Below are positions 2,177 to 25,480 of a stretch of DNA of 64,000 nucleotides, in pieces (position 1 is the first letter of the stretch; each line of letters starts with the position of its first letter). A model generated the notes under the pieces. It did not search any database. It worked only from the letters and a program-made list of their open reading frames with translations, and was not told the origin of the DNA. This DNA is from Oceaniferula flava (lineage in GTDB: Bacteria; Verrucomicrobiota; Verrucomicrobiia; Verrucomicrobiales; Akkermansiaceae), in the NCBI RefSeq assembly GCF_016811075.1, contig NZ_JAFBGL010000005.1, positions 186,001 to 250,000 of the forward strand, read 5' to 3'. The position numbers and the translations under genes were made by a program.

Positions 2177-5100
2177 TAGCCAAGCCATGGCCCCAGCCAT
2201 TTTTCAGCGGTGTCCATGTCCCAGCCCTTGCGCTTGGCATAGTCTTCCACTTGGTCTTTTTGCAGATCGCTGATGGCGAAATACTTACTTTCAGGGTGTG
2301 AGAAGAGCAGTCCGGAAACGGCGGAGCCTGGATGCATGGCGCAGCTTTCGGTCAGTTCCACGCCGGTGGCAGGAGTGGCGTCGAGCAGCTCGAACAGAGC
2401 TTTTTTCTCGGTGTGATCCGGTTGCGCCGGGTAGCCGGGTGCCGGACGGATTCCTTGATAAACTTCCTTGATCAGCTCGTTGTGGTTGAACTCATTCGGG
2501 CGCTCGTATCCCCACGCCACCCGTGCGCGGTGGTGGAGGAGTTCGGCAAAGGCCTCGGCGAGGCGATCCGCAATCGCTTGAACCATGATAGCGGAGTCGA
2601 CTTCATGTTTCTCGCGCAGCTGGGCCGCCCACTCATCGGCACCGTGGATGCCAACGACAAAGCCGCCGATGTGGTCGTCCGATGGTGCGACGTAATCGCT
2701 GAGCGCGTAGTGCGGTTTCTCAGTCGATTTCTCAATCTGCTGACGCAGGGTGTGGAAGGTGAGCTTGTTTTCAGGCAGCACGATGTCGTCGCCGTCGGCA
2801 TGAGCGGGGAAAAATCCGTAGATGCCACGGGCGGTGAATTTTTTCTCGCTGATGATTTCCTCCAGAAGTTCCTGCGCGTCCTGATAGAGTTTTTGGGCGA
2901 CTTCGGCAGCTTCGGCATTGCGGGTCTTAAGCACCTTGTTTTCCCGATCCCAGACGCCGCGTAGCTCCCAGGCGTGGAAGAACGGGGTCCAGTCGATATA
3001 GTCCGCCAGCTCGCGTAGCGATTGGTTGTCGATCACCCGTGTGCCGGTAAACTCGGGTTTCGGTGGGTTGTAGTTTTCCCAACCTCCCTTGGGCACGAAG
3101 CGATTTGACACCGCCTTTTCGTGCGAGATGGTGGCCTTGTCCTTCTTGTTGAAATTCGCGCGCAGCTTTTCGTGTTTCGCATTGTTCTCGGCAATGAAGG
3201 CTTCGCGCTTGTCCTCGCTGAGCAGGGTGGTGGTCACAGGCACCGAGCGGGAGGCATCGAGCACGTGCACGATGGGGCCGCTGTAGTGCTCGGCAATTTT
3301 CACTGCGGTGTGCGCAGGGCTGGTGGTGGCACCGCCGATGAGTAGGGGCAGTGTCATCTCGCGGCGCTCCATTTCCTTGGCCACGGCGACCATTTCATCG
3401 AGCGATGGCGTGATCAAGCCGGAGAGGCCAATGACATCAGCTTTCTTCTCGATGGCGGTGTCGAGGATTTTGTCGCAGGGCACCATCACGCCCATATCGA
3501 TCACTTCAAAGCCGTTGCAGGCGAGCACCACGCCAACGATGTTCTTGCCAATGTCGTGCACGTCACCCTTCACCGTGGCCATGATGACACGACCGGCGGT
3601 CATGGATTTCTCCACGTGGATGCGGGCATCGGCATCGGAGATCGACGGGTCTTCGGCCTGGAGGACTTTCATGTCGGCGAGAATCTTGATCTCTTTTTCC
3701 TCAGCCATGAACGGCTCGAGGTGGGCGACCGATTTTTTCATCACACGGGCGGATTTCACCACCTGCGGCAGGAACATTTTACCTGCACCAAAGAGATCAC
3801 CGACCACCGACATGCCGTCCATCAGCGGGCCCTCGATGACGTGCAGCGGTTTGTCGTATTTCAGCCGTGCTTCCTCCGTGTCCTCGGTGATGAAGTTGTC
3901 GATGCCCTTGAGCAGCGCGTATTCGAGACGTTTTTCCACGCTCTCCTTGCGCCAGGCGAGGTCTTCCGTTTGCACCACTTTCTTGATGCCTTTGTATTCC
4001 TCAGCGAGATCGAGCAGGCGCTCGGTGGCTCCTGGATCGCGATTCAGCAGCACGTCTTCCACGGCGACTAACAGCTTGGGTTCGATGTCATCGTAGACTT
4101 CCAACATACCCGCATTGACGATCCCCATGTCCATGCCGGCCTTGCCTGCGTGGTAAAGGAAGGCAGAGTGCATGGCTTCACGCACTGGGTTGTTGCCGCG
4201 GAATGAGAAGGAGACGTTGGAAACTCCGCCGGAGACTTTGGCTCCCGGCAGGTTGTCCTTGATCCACTTGGTGGCATTGAAAAAGTCGACCGCGTAGTTG
4301 TTGTGTTCGTCGATGCCGGTGGCGACGGTCAGGATGTTGGGGTCGAAAATAATATCCTGCGGGTTGAAGCCGACTTCATCGACGAGGATGCGGTAGGCGC
4401 GTTCGCAGATGCGGATTTTTTCCTCATAGGTGGCGGCCTGGCCATTTTCATCGAAGGCCATGACCACGGCGGCGGCACCAAATTTCATGATGGTGCGGGC
4501 GTTTTTCCTGAAGGCCTCTTCACCTTCCTTCAGCGAGATCGAGTTGACGATGCCTTTTCCTTGCAGACATTTCAGCCCCGCCTCGATGATTTCCCACTTC
4601 GAGGAATCCACCGTGATCGGCACCTTGGTGATGTCCGGCTCGGACTGCACCAGCTGGAGGAAGCGAGTCATCATATCGACGCCGTCGATCAAGCCGTCGT
4701 CGAAACAAATATCGATCACCGGAGCGCCGTTGTCCACCTGTTGACGGGCGACTGCGAGGGCGTCTTCCAGTTTTCCCTGCTGCACTAATTTCCTGAATCG
4801 TGGTGAGCCGGCGACGTTGGTGCGCTCGCCGATCATCAGGAAATTTTTATCGTCGGTGTGATTGTAGGCCTCTGTGCCGGAGAGTCTGAGCAGCGGCTCC
4901 TGGGTGGGGATTTCGCGTGGCGCATGCTGCTTCACCGCCTCAGCGATGGCGGCAACGTGTTCCGGAGTATTACCACAGCAGCCGCCTGCAAAGTTGAGGA
5001 AGCCGGCGCTGGCGAAGTCGGCCAGCTGGTTGTTCATGTCCTTGGGACCGAGATCGAAACCCGTCGGTGCCAGTGGGTTGGGCATGCCGGCGTTCGGGTA

Positions 5101-5991
5101 GCAGGAAACAAAGGCCTCTGCGATTCCACTCAGCTCGGAGAGGAAGGGGCGCATTTTGTCCGGCCCCAACGAGCAGTTCAGACCGACCGAGAGAGGGTTC
5201 ACGTGTTTCACCGCGTTCCACATTGCCTCGACTTTTTGAGCCGAGATCATTGTCTCGCCTCCCATACCGACGGCGGCGGAGATCATGATTGGCAATTTCA
5301 GCCCGTCCTCTTCAAAAACGTTTTGGGTGGCGACCAGCGCTGCCTTGGCATTCAGTGCGTCGAAAATCGTCTCCACCATCAGAATGTCGGTGCCGCCTTC
5401 GATGAGGGCGCGGATCTGGTGGGAGTAGTCGGCAACCAACTGGTCGAAGGTGGCCACACGGAATCCGGCGTCCTCGGCATCGGGTGAAACCGAGAGCGAT
5501 ACCGTGAGCGGCCCGATGGCTCCGGCGACGTAACGTTTCCTGCCAGTTTCTGTGCCAATGCGGTCGCACCACTCGCGACACAGCTGGGCGGATTTGACGT
5601 TCATTTCCCACGAGAGGTCCTGCAAGAACGGGTTCTCGATGACTTTCTGATAGAACTCCGGATCCTTGCGACCTTTGCCTGTTTCGCGTGGATCTTCGAC
5701 AAAGAACTCCGATTGCGAAATCGCGGTGCCGGAAAAGGTATTGGTCTCGATGATGTCGGAGCCGGCCTCGAGGAAGCGCTTGTGAATGTCTCCGATGGTA
5801 TCAGGCTGGGTCAGCGTGAGGATATCGCCATTATTGAGCAGATCCTTGTCGTTGGTTTTGAAACGATCCCCGCGGGCATCGGATTCCTCCAGTCCGTATC
5901 CACGGATGGTGGTGCCCATCGCTCCATCGAGCACAAGGATACGGTCTTTCAGGGCTTGGGTCAGTTCTTGGGTGGCGTCGGGTCTAGGCAT
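2173..5991 (-). CDS. metH: Cobalamin-dependent methionine synthase
   Basis: The protein has 1,272 residues from the ATG at 5991; an in-frame TTG at 6027 would add 12 residues that do not look like MetH. All four modules are present. The homocysteine domain (about 15-345) has the zinc cysteines in LNCSLG (C273) and GGCCG (C338, C339). The pterin/methyl-tetrahydrofolate domain (about 385-640) starts with [11 protein letters not shown]. The cobalamin domain has GDVHDIGKN, with the cobalt-ligand His812. The C-terminal activation domain has an [17 protein letters not shown]-adenosylmethionine motif near residue 1205. It transfers the methyl group of 5-methyl-tetrahydrofolate to homocysteine. No cobalamin riboswitch fits in the 113 bases separating it from the divergent DUF2868 gene. 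It is slightly longer than E. coli MetH (1,227). Confidence 0.97.
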
Positions 5992-6104
5992 AGCGTGGCG
6001 GGAGGGAAAGTATGCATGAAATGACAAGAAACAAGAACAAATCTATGTATCCTGATATGTTGATTTGTTTGTCGTGCTGAAGGAAATAGAACAGTGTTTG
6101 CGCA

Positions 6105-7526
6105 GTGACCCGACAACAGAAAAAACGCAGCTGGACTCTGCGCGATTTAGTGGATTTTGAAGTGCAGCTGGAAAAGGCAGCGCGCTGGAAGTCGGCGTGG
6201 CGGAATGGTGTCGGCGAGGAGCTGGAAAATGAAGGCGTCAGTTCCGAGCTGAATCGTCGTAGGCTGGGGTTCCGCTGGATGCTGGAGGAGGTCCGCGAGG
6301 CGGAGCATGAGGAATCGGGGCACCGTCTGGATTCCGGCGCACGTTTGCTCGCCTTCTTGCTCTGGCTGGTGATGTTGCTCACCGGCATCGGGGTGCTGCG
6401 TGGGCTGCTGATGGAGTTCGAGTTTTCCTATTCCGGCGGAGAAGTCACGCGGATGCGGGGCTATAATATTTGGATTTTGTTAGGCGTGACGATTGGCTTT
6501 CAATGGTTGCTGATGTTGGGCTCGGTGCTGGCCTACTGGCTATGGCGTCGCTGGTCCGGCAGTCTCAGTATTTTCCAAGTCCTGCTGCAGAAGCTGATTA
6601 GAAAATGGGGCGGCGAGAAGATGGTGGGCGATGTCTGGAAACGATTGCAAACTCGTGTCAGCGGAGGACAGAGTGTGATCTCATGGCGATTGGCGCGTAT
6701 TCTTCAGGCTGGGGGTGTCGGGTATAATTGTGGGCTTTTGTTAGGCCTTTTCGGTTGTCTGTGGTTTTTCCAGATTGGGTTTTATTGGGAGTCGACCCTA
6801 CCGCAGTTCGGTCGTGACAGTTTGATTCAGGTCACCGAGGCCTTGGCCTTTTTCAGCGATAGCATTGCACCCGGCGCGGAGGTGGTCGATCAGGCAAAAC
6901 GCGGCAGTGTTCTGATTCCGCCCGCACAGAATTCCATGCCTGAGCGCATGGCGGTGGATCTCTCCTGGGGCTTCTTTTTTCTCTTTGCCATCGCTGTCTG
7001 GGGCTTGCTCCCTCGGGTGATTTTGTGGGTGCTGGCGTGGTCGATGGAGCGTCGTGCTCTGGCGGGAATGGATTTTCAAGAATCACGACACCGTTCGCTC
7101 TGGCGTGACCTCACCAAGGTGCAGCGGGGTGAAGTGCAGGTAGGCCCAGCCGATGGTGTGGTGCTGCTCGATATCGGTGGCTTGGAAATGGACACGGACA
7201 GCGTTCGTCCTTTCCTACTGCAAACTCTGCGCGTGAACCCGGAAGCAAGATTTTCACTCGGCACACTGGATACCGAGGAGGAGGCGGAAGCCATGGAAAA
7301 AGCCAAGTCGGTAGCGATGGGCGTTGTGTTCTTGGTCGAAGGCTGGAACCTGAGTCCGAAACAGATGGAGGTCTATCACGATCAGATTCGCAGCGCGATT
7401 GGGGCCGATCACATGATCCGCTACGTCGTGATCGGCAGCGAGGAGGAGCTCGCGCAGTGGGCACAGTTTGTTGATTCCTTGAGAGACAGTGAGACCTCCG
7501 TGGTTCGCTATGATGTGGTCGGTTGA
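6105..7526 (+). CDS. DUF2868 membrane protein, partner of the downstream DUF3482 GTPase
   Basis: A 473-residue protein starting with GTG at 6105. The N-terminal 75 residues are charged and helical (VDFEVQLEKAARWKSAWRN), followed by at least four hydrophobic segments near residues 83-106, 121-148, 208-230 and 283-312. The C-terminal 140 residues form a soluble alpha/beta region (VLLDIGGLEMD, VVFLVEGWNLSP). This layout, together with a GTPase gene 34 bases downstream, matches the DUF2868/DUF3482 pair described in Proteobacteria; the function of the pair is not established. The two genes very probably form an operon. No catalytic motif could be assigned here. Confidence 0.72.
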   Translation: MTRQQKKRSWTLRDLVDFEVQLEKAARWKSAWRNGVGEELENEGVSSELNRRRLGFRWMLEEVREAEHEESGHRLDSGARLLAFLLWLVMLLTGIGVLRGLLMEFEFSYSGGEVTRMRGYNIWILLGVTIGFQWLLMLGSVLAYWLWRRWSGSLSIFQVLLQKLIRKWGGEKMVGDVWKRLQTRVSGGQSVISWRLARILQAGGVGYNCGLLLGLFGCLWFFQIGFYWESTLPQFGRDSLIQVTEALAFFSDSIAPGAEVVDQAKRGSVLIPPAQNSMPERMAVDLSWGFFFLFAIAVWGLLPRVILWVLAWSMERRALAGMDFQESRHRSLWRDLTKVQRGEVQVGPADGVVLLDIGGLEMDTDSVRPFLLQTLRVNPEARFSLGTLDTEEEAEAMEKAKSVAMGVVFLVEGWNLSPKQMEVYHDQIRSAIGADHMIRYVVIGSEEELAQWAQFVDSLRDSETSVVRYDVVG

Positions 7527-13553: not shown

Positions 13554-14984
13554 CTACTTGCCGGGAGCACCCTGGCCACCCTGAACGCGCACAGGCATCT
13601 GGGCGTTGGTTTTTTTCAACCACACTTGCAGCTTCTCAGCCAAGCGCTGAGCCAGCTCGGGTGATTGCTTCGCGAGGTTCTTCGTCTCGCTGATATCCAC
13701 GGCGAGGTTGTAGAGTTCCAGTTCTCCGTTGTCGTAACGTTGAATCAGCTTGTAGTCGCCTTCTCTGATGACACCTCCGAGGCGGTTCCGCTGGTGGAAT
13801 GCGTAGTTGGGGTAGTGCAGGTAGATGGCATCGCGTTTGATTTTCTTCTGTTGGAAAAGAGGGAGCAGGCTTTCTCCATCCACGGGCTGATTCGGTGTTA
13901 GGGGAAGTTGAGCGACGTCAAGGAGGGTGGGGTAGCAGTCCATGCTGATCACCGGGGTGTGGTTCACCGATCCGGCTGGAACCTTGCCTGGCCAGCGCAC
14001 GATCCACGGAATGCGAACGCCACCTTCGTAGAGCTGGCCCTTGAATCCGCGGAAAGGTCGGTTGTCTCCGTCGTAGCCGCCGTTGTCTGATTTGAAAATC
14101 ACGATGGTGTTCTTGCTCAGCCCGGTTTCGTCGAGGGCCTTTAAGAATCGACCAATCTCGGTGTCCATTCCCTCAATCATTGCGGCGTAAATCGGGTCTT
14201 TGATTCCTGGGCCTTTGCGCTGGCTGTATTTCTTGATCAGGTCCTTACGTGCTTGAATGGGGTAGTGCACGGAGTAAGGCCACCAGTTGAGGAAGAATGG
14301 CTCATCTTGATGATCTTTGATAAAGGCGATGGCTTCGTCGGCGAGACGTTTAGGCAGGTATTCGCCTTCTTCCTTATCGGGCAGGTTGGGGATCTTATAC
14401 GGCGCAAAGTAGCTCGGTGGGCCACCACGGAAGTGGCCTCCAATGTTAATATCAAAACCTTGATGCTCTGGGCGCAACTCTAACTCGGTAGGCCCCGTGG
14501 TATTGTTTCTACCGACATAGGACAGGTGCCATTTTCCAATGTGCGCCGTCTTGTAGCCAGCCTCCGAAAGCCGTTCAGCAATCGTCACATAAGAAAGTGG
14601 CAGGTTCCGCAGAGTTTTCGGCTCCTGAAGGTTGCTGCCCTTGAGTGCGAATCCGTCCTTGTGTCCGGGGGCGTGGTTAGTGAGGTGCAGTCGACTGGGT
14701 GCCTGCCCGGTCATCATCGCGGCCCGCGTTGGCGAACAAACGGGAGCGGCGGCATAAGCATCTGTGAAGCGCATGCCCTCGGCTGCCAGTTGATCCAGTG
14801 ATGGAGTGTCTACCAACTTGTTGCCGTAGCAGTGGAGGTCCTTGCCCCCGAGGTCATCGGCCATGATGATGACGATGTTCGGCTTCTTCGCTGTGCTCTC
14901 TGGCTCGGCAGCGATCGTTAGACTTGAGAGAGCCCCGAGTGAGGCGAGAGAGAGAGCTGAGAGGTGTCGACGAGTAAAAAACAT
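13554..14984 (-). CDS. Exported type I sulfatase (Cys-type), outside the main array
   Basis: 476 residues. The start has a twin-Arg (RR)-containing signal peptide, MFFTRRHLSALSLASLGALS, with cleavage near AIAAE. The sulfatase core follows: metal ligands in IIMADDLGGKD (about 39-50), active-site motif CSPTRAA with Cys83 as the formylglycine precursor, IGKWHLS (Lys/His ligands near 147-152), and FKSDNGGYDGDN with the second metal pair. CSPTR is the CxPxR consensus with Thr in place of Ser. Such enzymes hydrolyse sulfate esters after Cys is oxidised to formylglycine by a maturase not present here. It is divergent from a LuxR-type regulator 294 bases away, with a 20-base inverted repeat between, suggesting local control. 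Substrate unknown. Confidence 0.93.
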   Translation of the reverse strand: MFFTRRHLSALSLASLGALSSLTIAAEPESTAKKPNIVIIMADDLGGKDLHCYGNKLVDTPSLDQLAAEGMRFTDAYAAAPVCSPTRAAMMTGQAPSRLHLTNHAPGHKDGFALKGSNLQEPKTLRNLPLSYVTIAERLSEAGYKTAHIGKWHLSYVGRNNTTGPTELELRPEHQGFDINIGGHFRGGPPSYFAPYKIPNLPDKEEGEYLPKRLADEAIAFIKDHQDEPFFLNWWPYSVHYPIQARKDLIKKYSQRKGPGIKDPIYAAMIEGMDTEIGRFLKALDETGLSKNTIVIFKSDNGGYDGDNRPFRGFKGQLYEGGVRIPWIVRWPGKVPAGSVNHTPVISMDCYPTLLDVAQLPLTPNQPVDGESLLPLFQQKKIKRDAIYLHYPNYAFHQRNRLGGVIREGDYKLIQRYDNGELELYNLAVDISETKNLAKQSPELAQRLAEKLQVWLKKTNAQMPVRVQGGQGAPGK

Positions 14985-17292: not shown

Positions 17293-18429
17293 ATGACTTC
17301 CATCACACGCAGCTGTCTCGCTTTTTTATTCTGTCTCACGGGCACCCTGATCGCATCGCCTGAGCCCGCTGATCTGAAGGCCAAGTTGCAAATCATCAAT
17401 GCCAGCGAGGAAAAGGCGGCGATCTTTTGGCTCAGTCAGGATGGCAAGGAAGAGCCCAATGGCACGCTTGATCCCGGTGAAGACCGCATGATCACCACCA
17501 CCTTGGGGCATCGCTTTGCCGTGGTCGGGGAGAAAACGGAAATTCGCCTGGAGGTGGAAAGCATCGTTCCGGTGCAAGGTTTCCGCTTCGCTCCGCAAGA
17601 AAAGAACGGCATTCCGGCCTTTTACAGTCAGGTGGTTAAGGTCGGCGGTTTTCCCATTGTCGCATCGGCCACAGTCAATCCCTACGCGCTCAAGGAGGCC
17701 GCTTATCTGGTGGATCTCATGTTGAAAAAGAGAGCCGACGTCCGCACGGCGATGGTGAAGAGTGGAGCCCGGTTGTGCATCATTGCGTATAACGAATACA
17801 CCACCGATTTACCGGAGTTTACCCACTTCGCCGAGTTCAAGAGCCCCTATCCTGAGGTCACCTCCAAGAACTTCTGGGACGCCCGCGCACGCGGCACGGG
17901 TGGTAGTGACTCGGACCCCTACTGCACCTGTGGCGAGGAAAATCTGCTAGGTTACCCGGGTGACCCCTACAAGGATGAGAACATTCTGATTCACGAGTTC
18001 GCCCATAACATCCACCTGCGTGGTATGCTCAATATCGATCCCACCTTCGACGTGCGTCTGGAGGCCGCCTATCAGAAAGCCATGGCGGCCGGGCTTTGGG
18101 AAAATAAGTATGCCGCGACCAATCGCTTCGAATACTTCGCCGAGGGTGTGCAGTCGTGGTTTGGGAACAACCGCGAGAACGATCACGATCACAACCACGT
18201 CAATACCCGCAAGGAACTGGTAGAATACGATCCGGTGTTGGCTAAATTCTGCGAAGAGGTCTTTGGTGACACGGAGATCACTTACACCAAGCCTGCCACC
18301 CGACTGACCGGGCACATGAAAGGTTACGATCCCAGCAAGGCTCCCACTTTTGCGTGGCCGGAGCGCTTGCAGAAGGCAAAGGCCGCTATCCGCAAGGCGA
18401 ATGAAGAAGCGGATAAGCCGAAAGAATAG
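17293..18429 (+). CDS. Secreted HExxH metallopeptidase-like protein with N-terminal VHL-beta-like domain
   Basis: 378 residues with a Sec signal peptide (cleavage near residue 21). Residues about 30-80 read LQIINASEEKAAIFWL...NGTLDPGE...TTTLGHRFAVV, which follows the strand pattern of the von Hippel-Lindau beta domain (N-S-...-IFWL, LxPGE, GHxFAV). Further on is IHEFAHNIH, an HExxH zinc motif (H234, E235, H238), followed by FEYFAEGVQ, with E280 and E284 as candidate third ligand (gluzincin-like). A Cys pair, YCTCGEE, precedes the zinc motif. The probable role is an exported zinc peptidase; the substrate is unknown. It stands 76 bases upstream of a CBM-like lipoprotein and a PL7 lyase on the same strand, possibly one unit. 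The VHL resemblance is by eye and moderately certain. Confidence 0.68.
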   Translation: MTSITRSCLAFLFCLTGTLIASPEPADLKAKLQIINASEEKAAIFWLSQDGKEEPNGTLDPGEDRMITTTLGHRFAVVGEKTEIRLEVESIVPVQGFRFAPQEKNGIPAFYSQVVKVGGFPIVASATVNPYALKEAAYLVDLMLKKRADVRTAMVKSGARLCIIAYNEYTTDLPEFTHFAEFKSPYPEVTSKNFWDARARGTGGSDSDPYCTCGEENLLGYPGDPYKDENILIHEFAHNIHLRGMLNIDPTFDVRLEAAYQKAMAAGLWENKYAATNRFEYFAEGVQSWFGNNRENDHDHNHVNTRKELVEYDPVLAKFCEEVFGDTEITYTKPATRLTGHMKGYDPSKAPTFAWPERLQKAKAAIRKANEEADKPKE

Positions 18430-18505: not shown

Positions 18506-19123
18506 ATGCGTATTACTCTGTTAGCGATCACCTTGTTAAGCGGCTGCCTGCACGCCGCACCGACTGTATTTCTCGAGAAAAAAGGCCTCGTTGTCATCGA
18601 GGCCGAGTCAACCACGTCGCGTCTCGGCAAGTGGGTGAAAAAGTCCAGCGTCAAGGGGTTCACTGGCGACGCGCATCTTGAGTTCACCGGCAACAAACCG
18701 GAGACCGGCCCGCCTAAGTCGCCATTGAAATACACCTTCAAGGTTAGCAAGGGCGGCAAGTATTCCTTTTCCATCCGTGCCCATAAACGCCTGATCAGTG
18801 ATCGGCAGGATATTTGCAACGATTGTTATGTCCGCCTCGAGGGCGACTTTGAATCGGGCAACAAGACACCTCTCAAACTGCTAAAAAAGGACACCAAAAT
18901 GTTCGGCGGCAAGTCAGAGGGCTGGGGCTATACCGCGAAGCTGGATGACAAGCATCAGAAACACACACCCGTCTATCAGCTCAAGGCAGGTGAGACCTAC
19001 ACCTTGGTCGTTTCCGGTCGGTCACAGAATTTTAATATCGATCGCTTTGTCTTCGCTCACGAAGACAGCAGCATGAAGGCGGCCCAGAAGAAGTTGCCTA
19101 AGGAAAGCCGCACCGGATCATGA
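18506..19123 (+). CDS. Exported carbohydrate-binding-module-like protein
   Basis: 205 residues starting MRITLLAITLLSGCLHAAP. The LSGC could act as a lipobox (Cys14) or HAA as an ordinary cleavage site. The mature part begins LVVIEAEST and continues LEFTGNKPETGPP, FKVSKGGKYSFSIRAHK and YTLVVSGRSQNFNIDRFVF. The opening EAE motif and closing FNIDR-type strand are the usual frame of CBM6/CBM35-like beta-sandwich domains. There is no catalytic domain. It overlaps the PL7 lyase by four bases (ATGA), so the two are translationally coupled; a role in presenting polysaccharide to the lyase is an inference. Two cysteines in ICNDCYV may form a disulfide or bind metal. Confidence 0.65.
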   Translation: MRITLLAITLLSGCLHAAPTVFLEKKGLVVIEAESTTSRLGKWVKKSSVKGFTGDAHLEFTGNKPETGPPKSPLKYTFKVSKGGKYSFSIRAHKRLISDRQDICNDCYVRLEGDFESGNKTPLKLLKKDTKMFGGKSEGWGYTAKLDDKHQKHTPVYQLKAGETYTLVVSGRSQNFNIDRFVFAHEDSSMKAAQKKLPKESRTGS

Positions 19124-19866
19124 AGAGGACTATCGTCAAGGTCCTGCCATGGATGATGGCGGTATTTCCACTGAGTGCCTGCGCCGCGGCTCCCCCCGGC
19201 CAGCTGCTTGACCTGTCGTCGTGGAAGCTCACTCTGCCAGTGGACGTGGCGAAGCCGCTTGGCTCTCCGGACGAGATCAAGTCACCGGAGCTCAAGAATT
19301 TTGCGCACCAACGGTATTTTTTCGTCGAGAACGGCGCGGTGATATTCCGAGCCCCCTGTGGTGGAGCCACTACCAAAAACTCAAAATACCCACGCTGCGA
19401 GCTGCGCGAAATGTCTGCCGATGGAACGTCGCGCGCCGCCTGGGACACCAGAGCCAGTCTAGTGCGCTCGATGACGCTACAGGCGAGTATCACGAAGACG
19501 CCGAAGGTGAAACGTCACGTCGTCTGTGCCCAGATTCACGATGCCGATGACGACCTGATGATGGTTCGGCTGGAGGGCGACAAGTTGTTTATTGAGCGCA
19601 ACAAAATCGGTGATGTTCTACTCCAAGATGGCTACCGTTTGGGAGATTCATTTTCCGTCAAAATCGAGGCCGGAAAGGGGCGGGTCAAAGTCTGGTATAA
19701 TGGCGAACTGAAGATGGACTGGGAGGTTGCGAAGCGGGGCTGTTATTTCAAGGCTGGCTGTTACACCCAATCCAATCCTGAAAAAGGAGACCGTGCAGAC
19801 GATTACGGCGAGGTGATCATTTCCAAGCTCAAGCTCGAGACGCAAAAAAACCACCCTAACGAGTAG
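19120..19866 (+). CDS. Polysaccharide lyase family 7 (alginate lyase type), probable lipoprotein
   Basis: 248 residues. The signal peptide ends in FPLSAC, a lipobox with Cys21. The mature domain is a complete PL7 jelly roll beginning LDLSSWKLTLPVD. All three catalytic strands are visible: RCELR (92-96, the family RxELR), QIH (Q138-H140) and YFKAGCY (209-215, with catalytic Tyr). PL7 enzymes cleave alginate, a brown-algal or bacterial uronate polymer, by beta-elimination. The isoleucine in QIH is associated in the literature with guluronate-containing substrates. As a lipoprotein it would sit on the outer membrane. It is coupled to the CBM-like gene upstream. The terminator of the convergent PEP-CTERM gene lies inside its last codons. 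Confidence 0.9.
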   Translation: MKRTIVKVLPWMMAVFPLSACAAAPPGQLLDLSSWKLTLPVDVAKPLGSPDEIKSPELKNFAHQRYFFVENGAVIFRAPCGGATTKNSKYPRCELREMSADGTSRAAWDTRASLVRSMTLQASITKTPKVKRHVVCAQIHDADDDLMMVRLEGDKLFIERNKIGDVLLQDGYRLGDSFSVKIEAGKGRVKVWYNGELKMDWEVAKRGCYFKAGCYTQSNPEKGDRADDYGEVIISKLKLETQKNHPNE

Positions 19867-19896: not shown

Positions 19897-20910
19897 CTAT
19901 TTCCGACGGCGCATCAGCAGTGCCAGTCCTCCGAGTCCCAGTAAGGCCGTGGATGATGGCTCAGGCACGTAAGTGACGGTGAGCAGTCCGTTGGGGCCGC
20001 TGTTATCAACGGTGAAGCTCCAGCCCGCTGCTTCATCACCGGCAGCCAGTTCCAAGCCTTCATCCGTAATGGCTGCTCCTTCCAGCTCCATGAGCGTCCA
20101 GGTGCCAGGGGTGGCGACGGTATCGTAGAAGCTCATGTCCAAGATAGAGCCATCGGCGAAGGTGGCAAATTGGCCGCCATCATCGTCGACGTTATCGACA
20201 AAGATCTGCTCCACGCCATCGGCACCTATTCCCATGCTTAGGGTGCCTCCGGCGGTCTGCCACCAGAAGCCGTCGAGGCTGCCATTGGAGCCGATGTTGA
20301 TATCGATCCCTTGTTGGGAGTCGCCGGTTCCCATAATCTGGAACGTTCCGCCTGCGCCAATTTCTACGCCGGCCCGGGTATTCAGGGTGCCGCGGCTGAT
20401 GTCGAGTATGCCGGTGCCGCCATTGGTTCCAATCGCCAGTGAGCTTTTTACTGGAGAGCCAGCCATCGCATTGCCGTCACGGAAGACGGTCAAGGTTCCG
20501 GACAATAAACTGTATGAGCCATTGCCTCCTGTGCCGTTACCGATGGAAAGCATGTGACCGATGTCCCATTGGGCATTCCCCTGGTGCTTGACGGTTCCTG
20601 CACTGCCATTGCCGATATAATTTCGGACATTGGAACCTGATAGGCTGTCCGAGTGGCTATTGCCATTCAATTCGAGCGTCGACCCGCCGTTGACATCGGT
20701 TTTATTCACCGTAACACCAGAGAATCGAATGGTGGTATCGCCATTGTCGATCACCGCTGTGCCATTGGCTGCTGCGTCGTCGTCCCAGTTGGTATCGGTG
20801 CTCCAAAAAGGAGTCCCGCCGCCGCCATCCCAGATGGCTCCTTGGGCATGCGTGATGGCAAAGATACAGCCGATGGCTGCTATTTTAAAGTTTGGGGATT
20901 TCTTAATCAT
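19897..20910 (-). CDS. Exported PEP-CTERM protein with autotransporter-like repeats
   Basis: 337 residues from the ATG at 20910, which places a signal peptide (MIKKSPNFKIAAIGCIFAI, cleavage near HAQGA) at the start; an ATG 57 bases upstream would add 19 polar residues. The body is rich in Gly, Asn, Ser and Thr and contains repeats of the type LSIGNGTGGNGSYSLLSGTL and LDISRGTLNTRAGVEIGAGG, which suggest a right-handed beta-helix as in passenger-type repeat proteins. The C-terminus is the VPEPSSTALLGLGGLALLMR-type tail. It is similar in plan, signal region and upstream DNA to the next gene (21150-22253). Probably surface or matrix associated; no enzymatic motif. Confidence 0.85.
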   Translation of the reverse strand: MIKKSPNFKIAAIGCIFAITHAQGAIWDGGGGTPFWSTDTNWDDDAAANGTAVIDNGDTTIRFSGVTVNKTDVNGGSTLELNGNSHSDSLSGSNVRNYIGNGSAGTVKHQGNAQWDIGHMLSIGNGTGGNGSYSLLSGTLTVFRDGNAMAGSPVKSSLAIGTNGGTGILDISRGTLNTRAGVEIGAGGTFQIMGTGDSQQGIDINIGSNGSLDGFWWQTAGGTLSMGIGADGVEQIFVDNVDDDGGQFATFADGSILDMSFYDTVATPGTWTLMELEGAAITDEGLELAAGDEAAGWSFTVDNSGPNGLLTVTYVPEPSSTALLGLGGLALLMRRRK

Positions 20911-20954
20911 ATGTGTGTGGTAGTTGCGTGCTGTTAGGATGCTTGAATCAGAGC

Positions 20955-20990
20955 TGCTAGCACTCACTGAGTCAGTGATGATAGGCTGAG
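20955..20990 (-). promoter_or_regulatory. Upstream element shared with the neighbouring PEP-CTERM gene, including a 13-base palindrome
   Basis: A perfect palindrome, CACTGA-G-TCAGTG, lies at 20965-20977, about 55 bases upstream of the PEP-CTERM start at 20910. The surrounding bases (GCTAGCA, TGAG, ATGATGATAG in order) reappear with a shorter spacing upstream of the gene starting at 22253 (about 22295-22320). Both genes also have a CACACA run directly before the start codon. Shared upstream DNA suggests common regulation or recent duplication. No bound factor is known. Confidence 0.4.
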
Positions 20991-21149: not shown

Positions 21150-22253
21150 CTACTTTCTGCGGCGCAAGATCAGAGCAAGTCCACCAAGACCGAGAAGGGC
21201 GGCGGAGGAGGGTTCTGGGACGTAAGTCACCACCAGTGAATCTGCCTGCGTTGTGCCGCCGGTATCAACGAACTCGAAGCTCCAGTTGCTATCGACACCA
21301 GGATCCAAAGCCAGCCCACCATCTTCAAACAGGAAGTCTTCACCCCAGCTCATCAGCGTCCATGAGCCTGCCTGAGCAGCACCGCTAAAGCCAAGGTTGA
21401 GCAAGGCTCCAGCTTCGAAGGATACCCGGCCATCCGTTGGTGTGCCATGATCGTAAATTTCAATCGTGCTCAGGGAGAAGCCATCGGAGCTGTCAATGGT
21501 CGCTCCGAGTGTGCTGCCATCACCACTTTGGAGCCACTTGCCATCGGAACCAGAGTTTAGGAAGCCCAACTGAACAGTGGCGTTGCCTCCGATGATGTTG
21601 AAGTTGCCGGTGCCGGTATTCGTAGAGTTGAAACCACCAAGCATGAGGCCAAAGCGATCCTGGTAGGTTCCTGATCCGGAAACATTGATATTACCTGTCG
21701 CATTGCCTTGCCCCGCGATGGTGCTGACACTGATCGAGTTGGCTGTTAGGCCTCGTGAACCTTTGTAGGTGCCGCTGTCAGAGATATTGAGTGTTCCTAC
21801 GGAGTTACTATCGATGCCAACGCGTGTGCCACCACCCACGTCGATTGTTCCGGTGCCAGAGATATTGACCGTTCCGGTCTGGCCTTTGCCTCCATAGGTG
21901 TATCGGGTATTCTGTCCTGTTCCTTGGAGTGTTCCGGCGGAAACATTCAGCACCCCGCCAGTGCCTGAGCCGGTGCCGGTTTGGGAAGAAACGTAAATAG
22001 CGTTGACCTGCTGTGTTCCTGCAGCGTTGTAGTTGGCAACATTGGTGGCTCCGCCGTTGAACTCAGTAGGGATGGTGTTATCGGGGGACATTGTGGGGAC
22101 GAGTCCGGTGTCTTTATCGAGCCAGTTGTTGACATTGGTGAAGTCGTTCGCATCAAATGCTCCGGTCCAGATGTAGTTGGCTGCGTGAGCGTTGGTGGCT
22201 GCGAAGATACAGCCAAGAGCTGTAGTCTTAATAATCGTTCTAGTTATACTCAT
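21150..22253 (-). CDS. Exported PEP-CTERM protein, beta-helix-like
   Basis: 367 residues. The signal peptide MSITRTIIKTTALGCIFAAT is cleaved near NAHAAN. Its middle part shows about eight short repeats around G-T-x-N-I-S-G/D-S-G-T (for example GTVNISGTGTIDVGGGTR, GTLNISDSGTYKGSRG), the hallmark of autotransporter-associated or parallel beta-helix repeats. A Trp-containing YIWTGAFDANDFTNVNNW opening is typical of this protein class ('W.....NW'). It ends in VPEPSSAALLGLGGLALILR plus RRK. It is a paralogue of the gene at 19897, with the same signal-region pattern (ALGCIFA / AIGCIFA) and a related upstream region. Likely extracellular and matrix bound; function unknown. Confidence 0.87.
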   Translation of the reverse strand: MSITRTIIKTTALGCIFAATNAHAANYIWTGAFDANDFTNVNNWLDKDTGLVPTMSPDNTIPTEFNGGATNVANYNAAGTQQVNAIYVSSQTGTGSGTGGVLNVSAGTLQGTGQNTRYTYGGKGQTGTVNISGTGTIDVGGGTRVGIDSNSVGTLNISDSGTYKGSRGLTANSISVSTIAGQGNATGNINVSGSGTYQDRFGLMLGGFNSTNTGTGNFNIIGGNATVQLGFLNSGSDGKWLQSGDGSTLGATIDSSDGFSLSTIEIYDHGTPTDGRVSFEAGALLNLGFSGAAQAGSWTLMSWGEDFLFEDGGLALDPGVDSNWSFEFVDTGGTTQADSLVVTYVPEPSSAALLGLGGLALILRRRK

Positions 22254-22384: not shown

Positions 22385-25300
22385 CTATTCCACCTTGATA
22401 CGGAAAAAGGCTTTCTCACTCGGCACGATTACCGATGGGGCGGGGCTCAGAGTGATCATTAATTGTCCCTCGACGATCTCGCTGCTTTCCGTGAACTCAA
22501 CGTCCACAAAAGAGGTTTGGAGGTCGCCCATTTGCAGGAAGTAGCTGTGGCCAGCTGCCGAGTTCCAAGGGAATGTGAGAGAGGGGTGAATCGTGTCTCC
22601 CGTGAAATGAACCGGATTTGACCCCGGCTCCTGCGGGGAACTACCAAAGGCGTGTTCTAACAAGTTGACGATGCCATCGCCGTCCGGGTCGGCTGTTTTT
22701 TCATACACCAAAGGATCGGCGCGCTCGATATCGCTGAAGTAATCATACATGAACTGCTCGTAGCTTGAGCGAATGCGGACGGCGTAGGGTTTGCCGTAGC
22801 CGATGGATTCGCTGAAGCCGCTACCCGCATGCAGTCCTGAAACGGAGATTAAAAAGCGATCGTCGACGTCATCGCCCAAAGTCACTTCAGGTTCCACCAT
22901 GGCAGTGATGTCGTCCAAGGTGAAGCTTGAGCTGCTGAAGTTGGCTTCGGTGACTGTGGCGACGGTCTCTAATCCGCTGGTCACAATGTCATCAATGAAC
23001 CAGCCTTGGCTGGATGAATTTCCGGACACGATACTGCTGTTCCGCAGGGGTTCGTGCTGGTAGCGGAAACGCAGTTCGAAGCAGCGTCCAGCCAAGCCTG
23101 AGATATCGACCACGCGAGTGGTAAAATCAGCTTCCGCGCTGCCACCTCGTTGCACCCAAAGCGACTGCCAGGTGACGCCGTCAAAGGAAACCTGCAGCTC
23201 GGCAAACTGACCGGTGGTGCTACTGCGGAGTCGACTGGAAAAGTGCAGCGTCGCCCCTTGTGTTGCGTAATATTTGTTAGGAAGTGTTAGGGTGACGCTC
23301 TGCTGCGTTGCACTGTGTGCCAGTTGGTAGGACTGGTTGCCCTGACTCACGGTGGCAGACTGTAGTGGAGCATAACCATTGCCATCGTGGATCAGGTAGG
23401 AACTCGCTTCTTCGGCATCGAAGCCGACGGCCGTGGTGCTCGTCTTGGAAATTTTCAACCACTCCGGGGCGACGTCCACATCCGTGGCCACGGTGAATGT
23501 GTGGGCGGCACCGGTGGTGACTTCGGTGGGGCCTCCCAGCACGGGCAGACTGACCAGCTGGGCCACGCCGATGGCTTTTTCACCACTACCTGAGTAGAAT
23601 AAGTAAGTCCGGCCATCATTATCCTCCAGGACGCTGGGGTCTCGAAGTTCGTGCATGGGGTCATCAGCCCCGCCAGCCCCTGAGATGCTCAATGGAAGAT
23701 TGGCACCTTCCCAATTTTCCTCAGGTCGCAATAACTCTTGGCTTGGGAATACGCCGTGCCAGTCTTCGAAAGACAGCTCGCTTCCTGATGGTAGATTGGC
23801 AAAATCGAAGGTGGAAATCTTCACACGTTCGCCGATCTCACCCTTGTTGGTGTAGAATGCGTAAAGCAGTCCATCGCGCTTGAGCACGCCGAAGTGTCGA
23901 GGACGCAGGGCCCCTAAGTCATTGCCCCAATCTAGCCAGCCACGGCTCTCGGTTTCATCGGTAAAGGGTTTTGGGCCCTGATCCCAGTATCGGCTGGTGT
24001 GATTGTAGCTGGCATTGGGCACAAGTGGATCCAGAGGGACATTGGAGCTATCGACGGGTGCTCCGTAGAGGTCACCGGTATTAGTCAGGGCATACTGGCG
24101 GCCTCCTTCTTCGAAAATGCGGAAGTAGCTTTCGCCGTAATTCACGGAGAGCACGCCGTGTCCGGATTGCCCGGCACGGCTGTCACCACCGCTAGGCATG
24201 TTAAAATTGAGGCCGTCAGACGATGTGGCGGAGATAGTTCGTTGAGACCTGCTGTTACTACGGCCCTCAGACGTGAACCAGACCTGACCATGGAAATACA
24301 TGATGATTCGCTGGTTGGTGTCGTCGATGAGAACGTCAGGTGAAGCAATATGGCCATCGATCATCAATCCATCGCCGGCATCGATCTCATCATCATCGCC
24401 GAGGCTAAGCACGCCTCGATCTCCAATGTCTGGGTAGGTGTTTTCATTCATTCTGAAACCTGTCCATGGTCCCTCAATGTTGGCCGCCCAAGCCATGCGG
24501 ATGTAGTTTCCAGAGTGATCGGCAAAGTAGAGATAATAGACAGCAGTGGGGTCAGCACGTTCGTTGGCAGGGATCCAGTTAGGGATGCGGATGCAGGAGG
24601 CTCCGTTGAGGTTTTCGATGTTATCTCCCGTGGCTCCTTGGGAGATACTCCAGGACTCGTCGAGAATAGGCAGCTTGTTGTTCATCCTCCGGGTATGAAA
24701 CAGCAGGCCCGGACTAACAGCTCCGAGCATTTCTGCCACGCTGTCATCGTTGAAAATTGTGGACGAGAGGCTTTCGCTGCCTACGGATTGCCATTTGGAC
24801 GGGTTTACCACGTCGAGGGAGTAGTCGCTGATTGCCTTGCCGTTGCGGTTGATATCGGGGAATTCCGCGTCGTCGATTTCTCCCATATTGATGTTTCCCA
24901 ACACCACATTGAGCACGCTGGGTAAGGCCGACTCTCCACTCTCGCCCCAGCCGCCGGAACCTTCGTAATCGAGGCCGAAAATGAGCTGACCGTTCAGGTA
25001 ATCGTTGCCACCGCTGTCCACGATGGTCCCTTGGGCGAGAAAAATTTGCTCTCCCTGATTGGTCAGTGCAAAATTACCGGATCGCGTGCAGCTGCCGATA
25101 TTCGGACTGGGAGTCGAGGCGGTGACGTCCGGAATGGTGATCACTGTGCCGGGGGGCAGCGCGCTGGAGCCATTGGTCCAGGTGATCGAACGTAAACTTT
25201 CGTAGGAACCGCCAGCAAGACCTTGGCCCGTTCCATCTCCTCCTCCGCTGTAGTCGGCATCAATAAGGATCAACGATTCTCCCGCGGCGAGCTCGACCCA

Positions 25301-25456
25301 GGTGACAAAGCTAATCGAATCGCTCGGCGATTGTGAGGATTTATAACCGACAATCATCAGGTCGCCCGGCGAGTGAGCCACCGCCTGGCCGACGGTGAGT
25401 AAGACACAGAGGGCGGCTAGAGCCGGTTTGAGAGGAAATAAGAAGGGGCAGCGCAT
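22385..25456 (-). CDS. Large exported protein with a five-bladed-propeller (GH43-like) central region
   Basis: 1,023 residues from the ATG at 25456, which begins a signal peptide (cleavage near QAVAHS); a TTG at 25480 would add eight residues. Residues about 30-240 form a beta domain with WVELAAGESLILIDADYSGG and ITWTNGSSALPPGTVI, a module seen in exported bacterial proteins. Residues about 260-640 contain repeats of propeller blades (YYLYFADHSGNYIRMAWA, SPDVLIDDTNQRIIMYFHG, LRDPSVLEDNDGRTYLFYSG), a pattern of GH43/GH117-like glycosidase folds. A jelly-roll region follows (about 700-850), then TADPDGDGIVNLLEHAFGS, a C-terminal module common in Verrucomicrobia. There is no PEP-CTERM tail. A glycosidase role is possible but the catalytic acids were not identified with confidence. 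Confidence 0.68.
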   Translation of the reverse strand: MRCPFLFPLKPALAALCVLLTVGQAVAHSPGDLMIVGYKSSQSPSDSISFVTWVELAAGESLILIDADYSGGGDGTGQGLAGGSYESLRSITWTNGSSALPPGTVITIPDVTASTPSPNIGSCTRSGNFALTNQGEQIFLAQGTIVDSGGNDYLNGQLIFGLDYEGSGGWGESGESALPSVLNVVLGNINMGEIDDAEFPDINRNGKAISDYSLDVVNPSKWQSVGSESLSSTIFNDDSVAEMLGAVSPGLLFHTRRMNNKLPILDESWSISQGATGDNIENLNGASCIRIPNWIPANERADPTAVYYLYFADHSGNYIRMAWAANIEGPWTGFRMNENTYPDIGDRGVLSLGDDDEIDAGDGLMIDGHIASPDVLIDDTNQRIIMYFHGQVWFTSEGRSNSRSQRTISATSSDGLNFNMPSGGDSRAGQSGHGVLSVNYGESYFRIFEEGGRQYALTNTGDLYGAPVDSSNVPLDPLVPNASYNHTSRYWDQGPKPFTDETESRGWLDWGNDLGALRPRHFGVLKRDGLLYAFYTNKGEIGERVKISTFDFANLPSGSELSFEDWHGVFPSQELLRPEENWEGANLPLSISGAGGADDPMHELRDPSVLEDNDGRTYLFYSGSGEKAIGVAQLVSLPVLGGPTEVTTGAAHTFTVATDVDVAPEWLKISKTSTTAVGFDAEEASSYLIHDGNGYAPLQSATVSQGNQSYQLAHSATQQSVTLTLPNKYYATQGATLHFSSRLRSSTTGQFAELQVSFDGVTWQSLWVQRGGSAEADFTTRVVDISGLAGRCFELRFRYQHEPLRNSSIVSGNSSSQGWFIDDIVTSGLETVATVTEANFSSSSFTLDDITAMVEPEVTLGDDVDDRFLISVSGLHAGSGFSESIGYGKPYAVRIRSSYEQFMYDYFSDIERADPLVYEKTADPDGDGIVNLLEHAFGSSPQEPGSNPVHFTGDTIHPSLTFPWNSAAGHSYFLQMGDLQTSFVDVEFTESSEIVEGQLMITLSPAPSVIVPSEKAFFRIKVE

Positions 25457-25480
25457 AGGGGATTCAGAGTGAGCAATCAA

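Follow-up and report, generated by a model that had tools for sequence, protein, structure and literature searches.

What would a von Hippel–Lindau (VHL) beta domain be doing in a bacterial protein, joined to a zinc-peptidase-like domain behind what looks like an export signal? In animals, VHL reads hydroxyproline within the oxygen-sensing pathway, whereas for its bacterial domains we know of no convincing function given so far. In the available part of a survey (PMC9618697), the HIF/PHD/VHL pathway is placed in animals. The gene in question lies in a 64,000-nucleotide stretch of the Oceaniferula flava genome (the window, in whose coordinates the features below are given), for which the original prediction had proposed a VHL-like domain fused to an HExxH peptidase-like domain in an exported protein, next to a PL7 lyase, and possibly recognising a peptide or collagen-like substrate.

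17293–18429, plus strand: VHL and HExxH peptidase gene (P0001), 378 aa, exact ORF bounds
17293–17358, plus strand: signal-peptide-like start, residues 1–22, judged by eye; pLDDT low over residues 1–21
17371–17604, plus strand: VHL beta-sandwich domain, residues 27–104 (Foldseek E 6.6e-6; VIA-align Z 11.3)
17428–17430, plus strand: W46, equivalent to human Trp88 (W in 56/59 rows)
17497–17517, plus strand: T69–F75 stretch, with T69 equivalent to Ser111 (T 58/59), H73 to His115 (H 56/59) and F75 to Trp117 (F 58/59)
17605–18270, plus strand: PPEP/M34-like zinc peptidase domain, residues 105–326 (VIA-align, PPEP-3 Z 14.0)
17992–18006, plus strand: HEFAH zinc/catalytic motif, residues 234–238 (H234, E235 and H238 invariant, 59/59)
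18109–18144, plus strand: Y273–E284, with the proposed catalytic Tyr273, third zinc ligand Glu280 and second-shell Glu284 (each 59/59)
18506–19123, plus strand: exported-looking 205-aa protein, no Pfam match at E≤0.001
19120–19866, plus strand: PL7-type alginate lyase (PF08787 E 4.1e-46), overlapping the 205-aa ORF by 4 bases

The AlphaFold model of the window protein, built from 59 aligned sequences, has a mean pLDDT of 89.4 and a pTM of 0.86, with block pLDDT values of 95–97 across residues 31–100; the protein is apparently exported, judging by its signal-peptide-like start. An NCBIfam scan of it returned no match, the Pfam families found in it all stay under their cut-offs (M90, PF06167, 15.1 bits vs. 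26.2; ATLF, PF07737, 13.4 vs. 27.4; VHL, PF01847, 13.1 vs. a gathering cut-off of 21), and a PDB sequence search with the profile of alignment A1 gave VapC20 only (E 0.4–0.5), so that the kinship of the window family to both PPEPs and VHL rests on fold. Membership in M90/MtfA, as well as a toxin reading taken from the ATLF name, were dropped, as the respective scores are under the cut-off.

It is the predicted fold that bears out the VHL-type beta domain: pVHL ranks first in Foldseek, and VIA-align lays residues 27–104 of the model onto pVHL 69–156 with an rmsd of 2.2 Å over 78 residues, meaning that a VHL-like sandwich is indeed present in the structure prediction. A phmmer search of the PDB gave 24 VHL sequences among the 26 matches listed (best E 0.026, residues 35–77), while the Pfam profile suggested for checking the domain does find it, but below the cut-off, and gives matches at E≤1 in only 6 of the 59 aligned window-family sequences; a PF01847 scan of the window genome found nothing. 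The elongin-BC-binding alpha domain is missing, as the listed pVHL alignments end at pVHL 153–156 and the model enters the peptidase past residue 104. In human VHL, hydroxyproline is bound by Trp88, Tyr98, His110, Ser111, His115 and Trp117, of which Ser111 and His115 bond its hydroxyl (PMC9528729, available portion). The equivalent residues of the window protein, numbered from the phmmer alignment (adding 42 gives the human number), are W46, N56, T68, T69, H73 and F75. Asn occupies the Tyr98 position in 48/59 rows of the window subfamily and Phe the Trp117 position in 58/59; when Trp/Phe/Tyr are treated as one class and Ser/Thr as another, the five contact positions of the window set are conserved above random positions (P 0.017). 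The Asn and Phe may reflect a different sequence context, or a glycosylated or non-hydroxylated proline as the ligand.

The other half of the predicted fusion, the HExxH zinc-peptidase-like domain, holds up too, with PPEP-3 being the best VIA-align fold match (Z 14.0, 194 aligned, rmsd 4.1), followed by PPEP-1 (Z 13.1), lethal factor (12.1) and PPEP-2 (11.2), and with the catalytic residues invariant; the zinc ligands, whose loss in homologues had been named as a point to check, are kept in 59/59 aligned sequences. PPEP-3 uses His153, Glu154, His157, the oxyanion Tyr190 and the third zinc ligand Glu197 (PMC12828418, available portion), and since Y273 + 7 reproduces the Tyr190/Glu197 spacing, E280 is the proposed third zinc ligand, so that of the AEGVQ motif highlighted previously the invariance of its E (E284, 59/59) stands, but the role of third ligand rather goes to E280. 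According to the same source, the published PPEPs cut Pro-Pro bonds and the PPEP-3 cleft holds an extended proline-rich peptide along its edge strand. The window peptidase thus resembles PPEP-1, -2 and -3 (M34-type) in fold (Z 11.2–14.0), HExxH motif and a Tyr/Glu ligand pair spaced by 7, and differs from them in carrying a VHL domain, in its sub-cut-off ATLF score and in an identity of about 14–16%; judged from the model, a PPEP-like fold at 15% identity leaves cleavage specificity unfixed, with lethal factor being within 1 Z of PPEP-1. The word hydroxyproline has 0 occurrences in the available text of PMC12828418, and the PPEP papers searched mention neither VHL nor hydroxyproline. A chance pairing of an HExxH motif with a VHL domain is excluded by fold, invariant residues and recurrence.

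As for the immediate surroundings of the gene, the 205-aa neighbour is probably in one transcript with it and is possibly a carbohydrate-binding partner. The PL7 lyase pointed out by the original prediction is real, but does not qualify as a conserved partner: its blastp against the ORFs of loci L001–L081, many of which have short flanks, finds only the window genome’s own locus, and a functional unit with the lyase was accordingly rejected; neither is the 205-aa neighbour kept beside the window-family relatives in these same loci. Also near the window gene, all on the minus strand, are a sulfatase (13554–14984), two PEP-CTERM proteins (19897–20967 and 21150–22253) and a large protein weakly matching GH43 (22385–25480).

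The fusion is not a one-off: 137 relatives of the window protein (55–78% identity) were confirmed in genome contigs of Verrucomicrobiota and Planctomycetota, the best 80 of which were retained, and many lake and sediment records are found among them. With A denoting the window peptidase, B a second, HELAH-bearing domain and DPP a DPP-IV-type S9 peptidase, the architectures seen by blastp in the best 80 loci plus the window’s own are VHL-A alone, VHL-A-B (17 ORFs), VHL-A-DPP (5) and VHL-A-B-DPP (1), as well as the VHL-less A-DPP (4), A-DPP-B (1) and A-B (1). The window peptidase is therefore fused to DPP-IV in 11 of these best 80 of 137 loci (Pfam confirming DPPIV_N + Peptidase_S9 in 4/4 scanned fusions, L008, L042, L077 and L079) and adjoins a DPP-IV gene in a further 5/80 (L020, L037, L048, L056 and L070). 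This DPP-IV/prolyl tripeptidyl aminopeptidase (S9), which is fused to or found beside members of the window family and itself carries VHL in relatives, is a separate serine peptidase, whose S9 domain the window protein lacks. The B domain (HELAH...EYFAE, M90/ATLF-like) accompanies the window family as a stand-alone protein, in fusions, following DPP-IV or immediately behind VHL (L006:4211-6058 and L070:3741-6707, C-terminal parts; L036:254-1093; L153:4831-5811), reaching the Pfam M90 cut-off in L042 (31.5 bits), L036 (26.9) and L006 (26.5). In a tree of 46 peptidase domains, a branch with support 93/87 sets the 24 rows with an N-terminal VHL apart from all others, and those with a C-terminal VHL fall within a different set of 15 rows (support 98/100), which indicates that VHL and peptidase have been joined in both orders; two rows (L173 and L176) are labelled “none” by the strict pattern used, yet their VHL part matches in another search. 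On this phylogeny, the pairing appears to have arisen more than once or to have been reshuffled.

What else carries a VHL domain? Forty VHL regions were opened, the first 20 of which had been picked for closeness to PF05544 (the epimerase family), so that the 27/40 containing an S9 peptidase with VHL do not represent a random rate. DPPIV_N, Peptidase_S9 and VHL were matched in 26/26 sequences of alignment A2 (25 of those 27 plus L020), and a model of the S9 + VHL protein of L127 matches DPP-IV with Z 31.3, all 50 matches listed being S9-type. Sulfatases (L048, L134, L137, L150 and L155) and esterases (acetyl-xylan-esterase-like and SASA esterase proteins, L144 and L149) carry VHL as well, as does a sister of the window peptidase, whose VHL is C-terminal (L135, L145 and L148, to which the search in Planctomycetota adds L164 and L165) and in which PF01847 exceeds its cut-off in L135 (28.0 bits), L164 (38.4) and L165 (37.9). 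The VHL-like domain of the sulfatases at L048:1932-3761, L134:3883-5625, L137:2682-4595 and 4100-6280, and L155:3592-5307 is C-terminal. A 1663-aa protein (L156:91-5079, minus strand) combines an N-terminal VHL with a MACPF (perforin-type) domain, and near-bare VHL proteins of 127–129 aa are encoded at L138:5427-5813 (46.9 bits) and L096:1435-1815, both on the minus strand.

The pocket can be followed across these groups. In the S9 set (26), Trp88 is kept in 26, Tyr98 in 25 (Phe in 1) and Thr/Ser111, His115 and Trp117 in 26 each; the C-terminal-VHL peptidases (9, one of the ten tried having been dropped by a filter) keep Trp88 in 9, Tyr98 in 8 (Phe in 1) and the remaining three in 9 each. All five contact residues are, hence, kept by class in 35/35 of these domains, accounting, in the same reduced alphabet, for all but one of the six positions out of 43 that are fully conserved, a result that 100,000 random five-position draws never matched. 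The eight sulfatase VHL domains keep Trp88, Thr/Ser111 and Trp117 in 8, Tyr98 in 6 and His115 in only 2 (Ala in 5, Ser in 1); this loss of His115 in several of them hints, at the sequence level, at varied ligands, and the sulfatase ligand may differ, e.g., be a glycosylated hydroxyproline.

The window genome itself (3.95 Mb) has, in a row at locus L115, a D-amino-acid dehydrogenase, an AraC-type regulator, a 4-hydroxyproline epimerase, an aldehyde dehydrogenase and a DapA-family gene, which we take to be the make-up of the known 4-hydroxyproline pathway. The epimerase (L115:8833-9828) is over the PF05544 cut-off, and its best NCBIfam model is 4-hydroxyproline epimerase (NF010577; 403.1 bits vs. 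an equivalog cut-off of 442), as compared with 233 bits for proline racemase and 205 bits for trans-3-hydroxyproline dehydratase. The window gene is situated away from this cluster (contig C5 vs. C2), and the one DPP-IV-type peptidase of the genome is without a VHL match.

Physical linkage is found in the window’s order, in 141 genomes of which PF01847 is over its cut-off in 85 (0/14 in controls), PF05544 is present in 77 and the two occur together in 60 (odds ratio 5.5, p 3e-6; Fisher, ignoring kinship). In 39 of those 60, VHL is within 3.3 kb of PF05544, with a median gap of <400 bases, where ~0.3 would be expected in 6-Mb genomes; in the remaining 21, the two are on different contigs in 20 and 17 kb apart in one. 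The 39 linked genomes span 8 genus and 4 family labels and, with 21 sharing a single genus label (g7), are not independent. As for the peptidase domain of the window type, 52/141 genomes have it at E≤2.5e-65, 39 of which have PF05544 (odds ratio 4.0; Fisher, ignoring kinship), and it lies within 10 kb of PF05544 in 7 (~0.18 expected): in five, which share a single genus label (g138), it abuts or overlaps the epimerase, while the distance is 2 kb in one (g154) and 9.5 kb in another (g7). Gene rows of this kind are a D-amino-acid dehydrogenase, epimerase, trypsin-like protein, DapA-type protein and sister peptidase with C-terminal VHL on one strand (L135); a dehydrogenase, epimerase, DapA-type protein, aldehyde dehydrogenase and DPP-IV-VHL in a genome of the window’s family label (L126); and a window-family VHL-peptidase, sulfatase-VHL, epimerase, another sulfatase-VHL (its VHL being detected only with our own model) and DPP-IV-VHL (L048). 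A hydroxyproline-pathway homologue adjoins a window-family gene in 5/80 loci, namely, the epimerase in L048, a D-amino-acid dehydrogenase in L051, L055 and L062 (48–49% identity to that of the window genome) and a DapA-type gene in L065 (65% identity), with DapA-type matches at 24–28% identity having been left out of this count.

Full-strength PF05544 is present in 56 of the 80 window-family genomes (best 80 of 137). For the second phylum, 246 genomes of Planctomycetota, the phylum of the genome containing L008, were sampled, with VHL being found in 32, full-strength PF05544 in 43 and both in 10; the association is weak (10/32 VHL genomes vs. 33/214 others; odds ratio 2.5, p 0.043; Fisher, ignoring kinship), and in 0/10 of the genomes having both do the two share a contig, which makes the VHL–epimerase adjacency so far a feature of the window’s order. 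The weak PF05544 matches covering only ~50–173 of the profile were dropped as probable DapF-type relatives, which concerned 25 of 68 matching Planctomycetota genomes and 1/37 and 6/26 in two window-family genome searches. PF05544 accompanies 18/28 Planctomycetota loci of the window family vs. 43/246 of the sampled genomes (odds ratio 8.5, ignoring kinship) and 38/52 of the other window-family loci vs. 77/141 (odds ratio 2.3, p 0.02, ignoring kinship). Within those 28 Planctomycetota loci, it is found in 17/23 with VHL vs. 1/5 without (p 0.04), three of those five being close kin.

What was computed here comprises both folds, catalytic residues without any variation, a partly retained hydroxyproline pocket, a catabolic gene cluster in the same genome and, in related genomes, the physical linkage of VHL domains and of this type of peptidase to epimerase genes. 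From this we favor, with a probability of roughly 0.6, the reading that the window protein is an exported PPEP/M34-fold zinc endopeptidase cutting proline/hydroxyproline-rich polypeptides, held on them by a VHL hydroxyproline-binding module. The enzyme would be exported and the face of its VHL domain would grip hydroxyproline in an extended chain, keeping the enzyme on hydroxyproline-bearing chains much like a carbohydrate-binding module does for a glycosidase; the PPEP-like cleft, with its putative zinc, would cut near the gripped hydroxyproline, DPP-IV-type enzymes would trim X-Pro/X-Hyp dipeptides from the freed peptides, and 4-hydroxyproline would be consumed via the epimerase, D-hydroxyproline dehydrogenase, deaminase and aldehyde dehydrogenase. 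Candidate natural substrates are the hydroxyproline-rich glycoproteins of algal or plant walls, and collagen. Sulfatases and esterases carrying VHL suggest a decorated, sulfated glycoprotein, of which the hydroxyproline-rich proteins of algal cell walls are an example, and the lake and sediment records of the relatives fit an algal-wall substrate without showing it. The earlier suggestion of peptide or collagen-like recognition was right in its direction (hydroxyproline), but collagen is not singled out, because the sulfatases and carbohydrate esterases carrying VHL speak no less for glycoproteins rich in hydroxyproline. That bacterial VHL beta domains at large are true hydroxyproline-binding modules, a targeting device common to exported peptidases of the DPP-IV type and of the PPEP type with VHL at either end, sulfatases and carbohydrate esterases stripping hydroxyproline-rich glycoproteins for food, with genes often clustered with hydroxyproline catabolism, is a broader proposition to which we would give even odds.

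The same domains could also be read otherwise. VHL might bind proline-rich/polyproline-II chains generally, with the enzyme acting like PPEP-1, i.e., cleaving Pro-Pro so as to release or remodel proteins of the surface, in favor of which one could cite the Asn and Phe standing in place of Tyr98 and Trp117 in the window subfamily and the PPEPs, cutters of Pro-Pro (PMC12828418, available portion), being the best fold matches; we nevertheless find this unlikely, as the hydroxyl-bonding residues are kept (Ser111 as Thr in 58/59, His115 in 56/59) and the linkage runs to hydroxyproline catabolism. The divergent pocket of the window subfamily, together with the 205-aa and PL7 genes downstream on the same strand, could likewise be taken to mean that the sandwich is merely a structural or protein–protein module and that the peptidase has another target, e.g., in polysaccharide uptake beside the PL7 lyase, yet that pocket is still conserved above random positions (P 0.017) and the PL7 neighbour is not conserved, which leaves this explanation improbable.

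Least probable of all, in our opinion, is a bacterial counterpart of the HIF pathway, in which a PHD-type hydroxylase would make hydroxyproline in the bacterium’s own proteins for VHL to recognise. The window genome does encode a PHD-type prolyl-hydroxylase-like 2OG oxygenase (L158:1474-2163, minus strand) close to a solved bacterial structure (PDB 4iw3, E 8.9e-40) and to EGLN1/PHD2 (E 6.8e-8), but the VHL carriers are degradative enzymes with export-signal-like starts, and the linked genes serve the breakdown of hydroxyproline.

Relative to human pVHL, the window domain shares the sandwich (Z 11.3 over 78 residues) and keeps Trp88, Ser/Thr111 and His115, and the 35 S9 and sister-peptidase VHL domains keep all five contact residues by class; unlike pVHL, the window protein lacks, within the range aligned, the alpha domain that binds elongin, is predicted to be exported, is joined to a peptidase and has Asn/Phe for Tyr98/Trp117. 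A VHL protein of Litorilituus sediminis (PMC9002001) is likewise bacterial, predicted to be exported and in possession of a VHL beta domain; the available part of that paper proposes a tumour-suppressor-like role and connects the protein neither with peptidases (0 occurrences) nor with the catabolism of hydroxyproline. Neither VHL nor prolyl oligopeptidase is mentioned in a genome-neighbourhood paper on the epimerase family (PMC4113996), and a literature search, with subscription journals mostly outside its reach, gave no link of bacterial VHL to peptidases or hydroxyproline catabolism among the matches listed. The domains themselves were already known; their combination in one protein, and a connection between bacterial VHL and the use of hydroxyproline, were not encountered in this search.

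If the broader proposition is true, VHL-type hydroxyproline reading exists outside of oxygen sensing and is possibly older than it, and the animal VHL domain would gain a bacterial counterpart or source, and with it a lead on the origin of VHL. Bacterial VHL domains would then be hydroxyproline handles on degradative enzymes, a proposition that is directly testable, and would open up a route to enzymes for collagen and hydroxyproline-rich wall proteins, as well as to new hydroxyproline-binding reagents.
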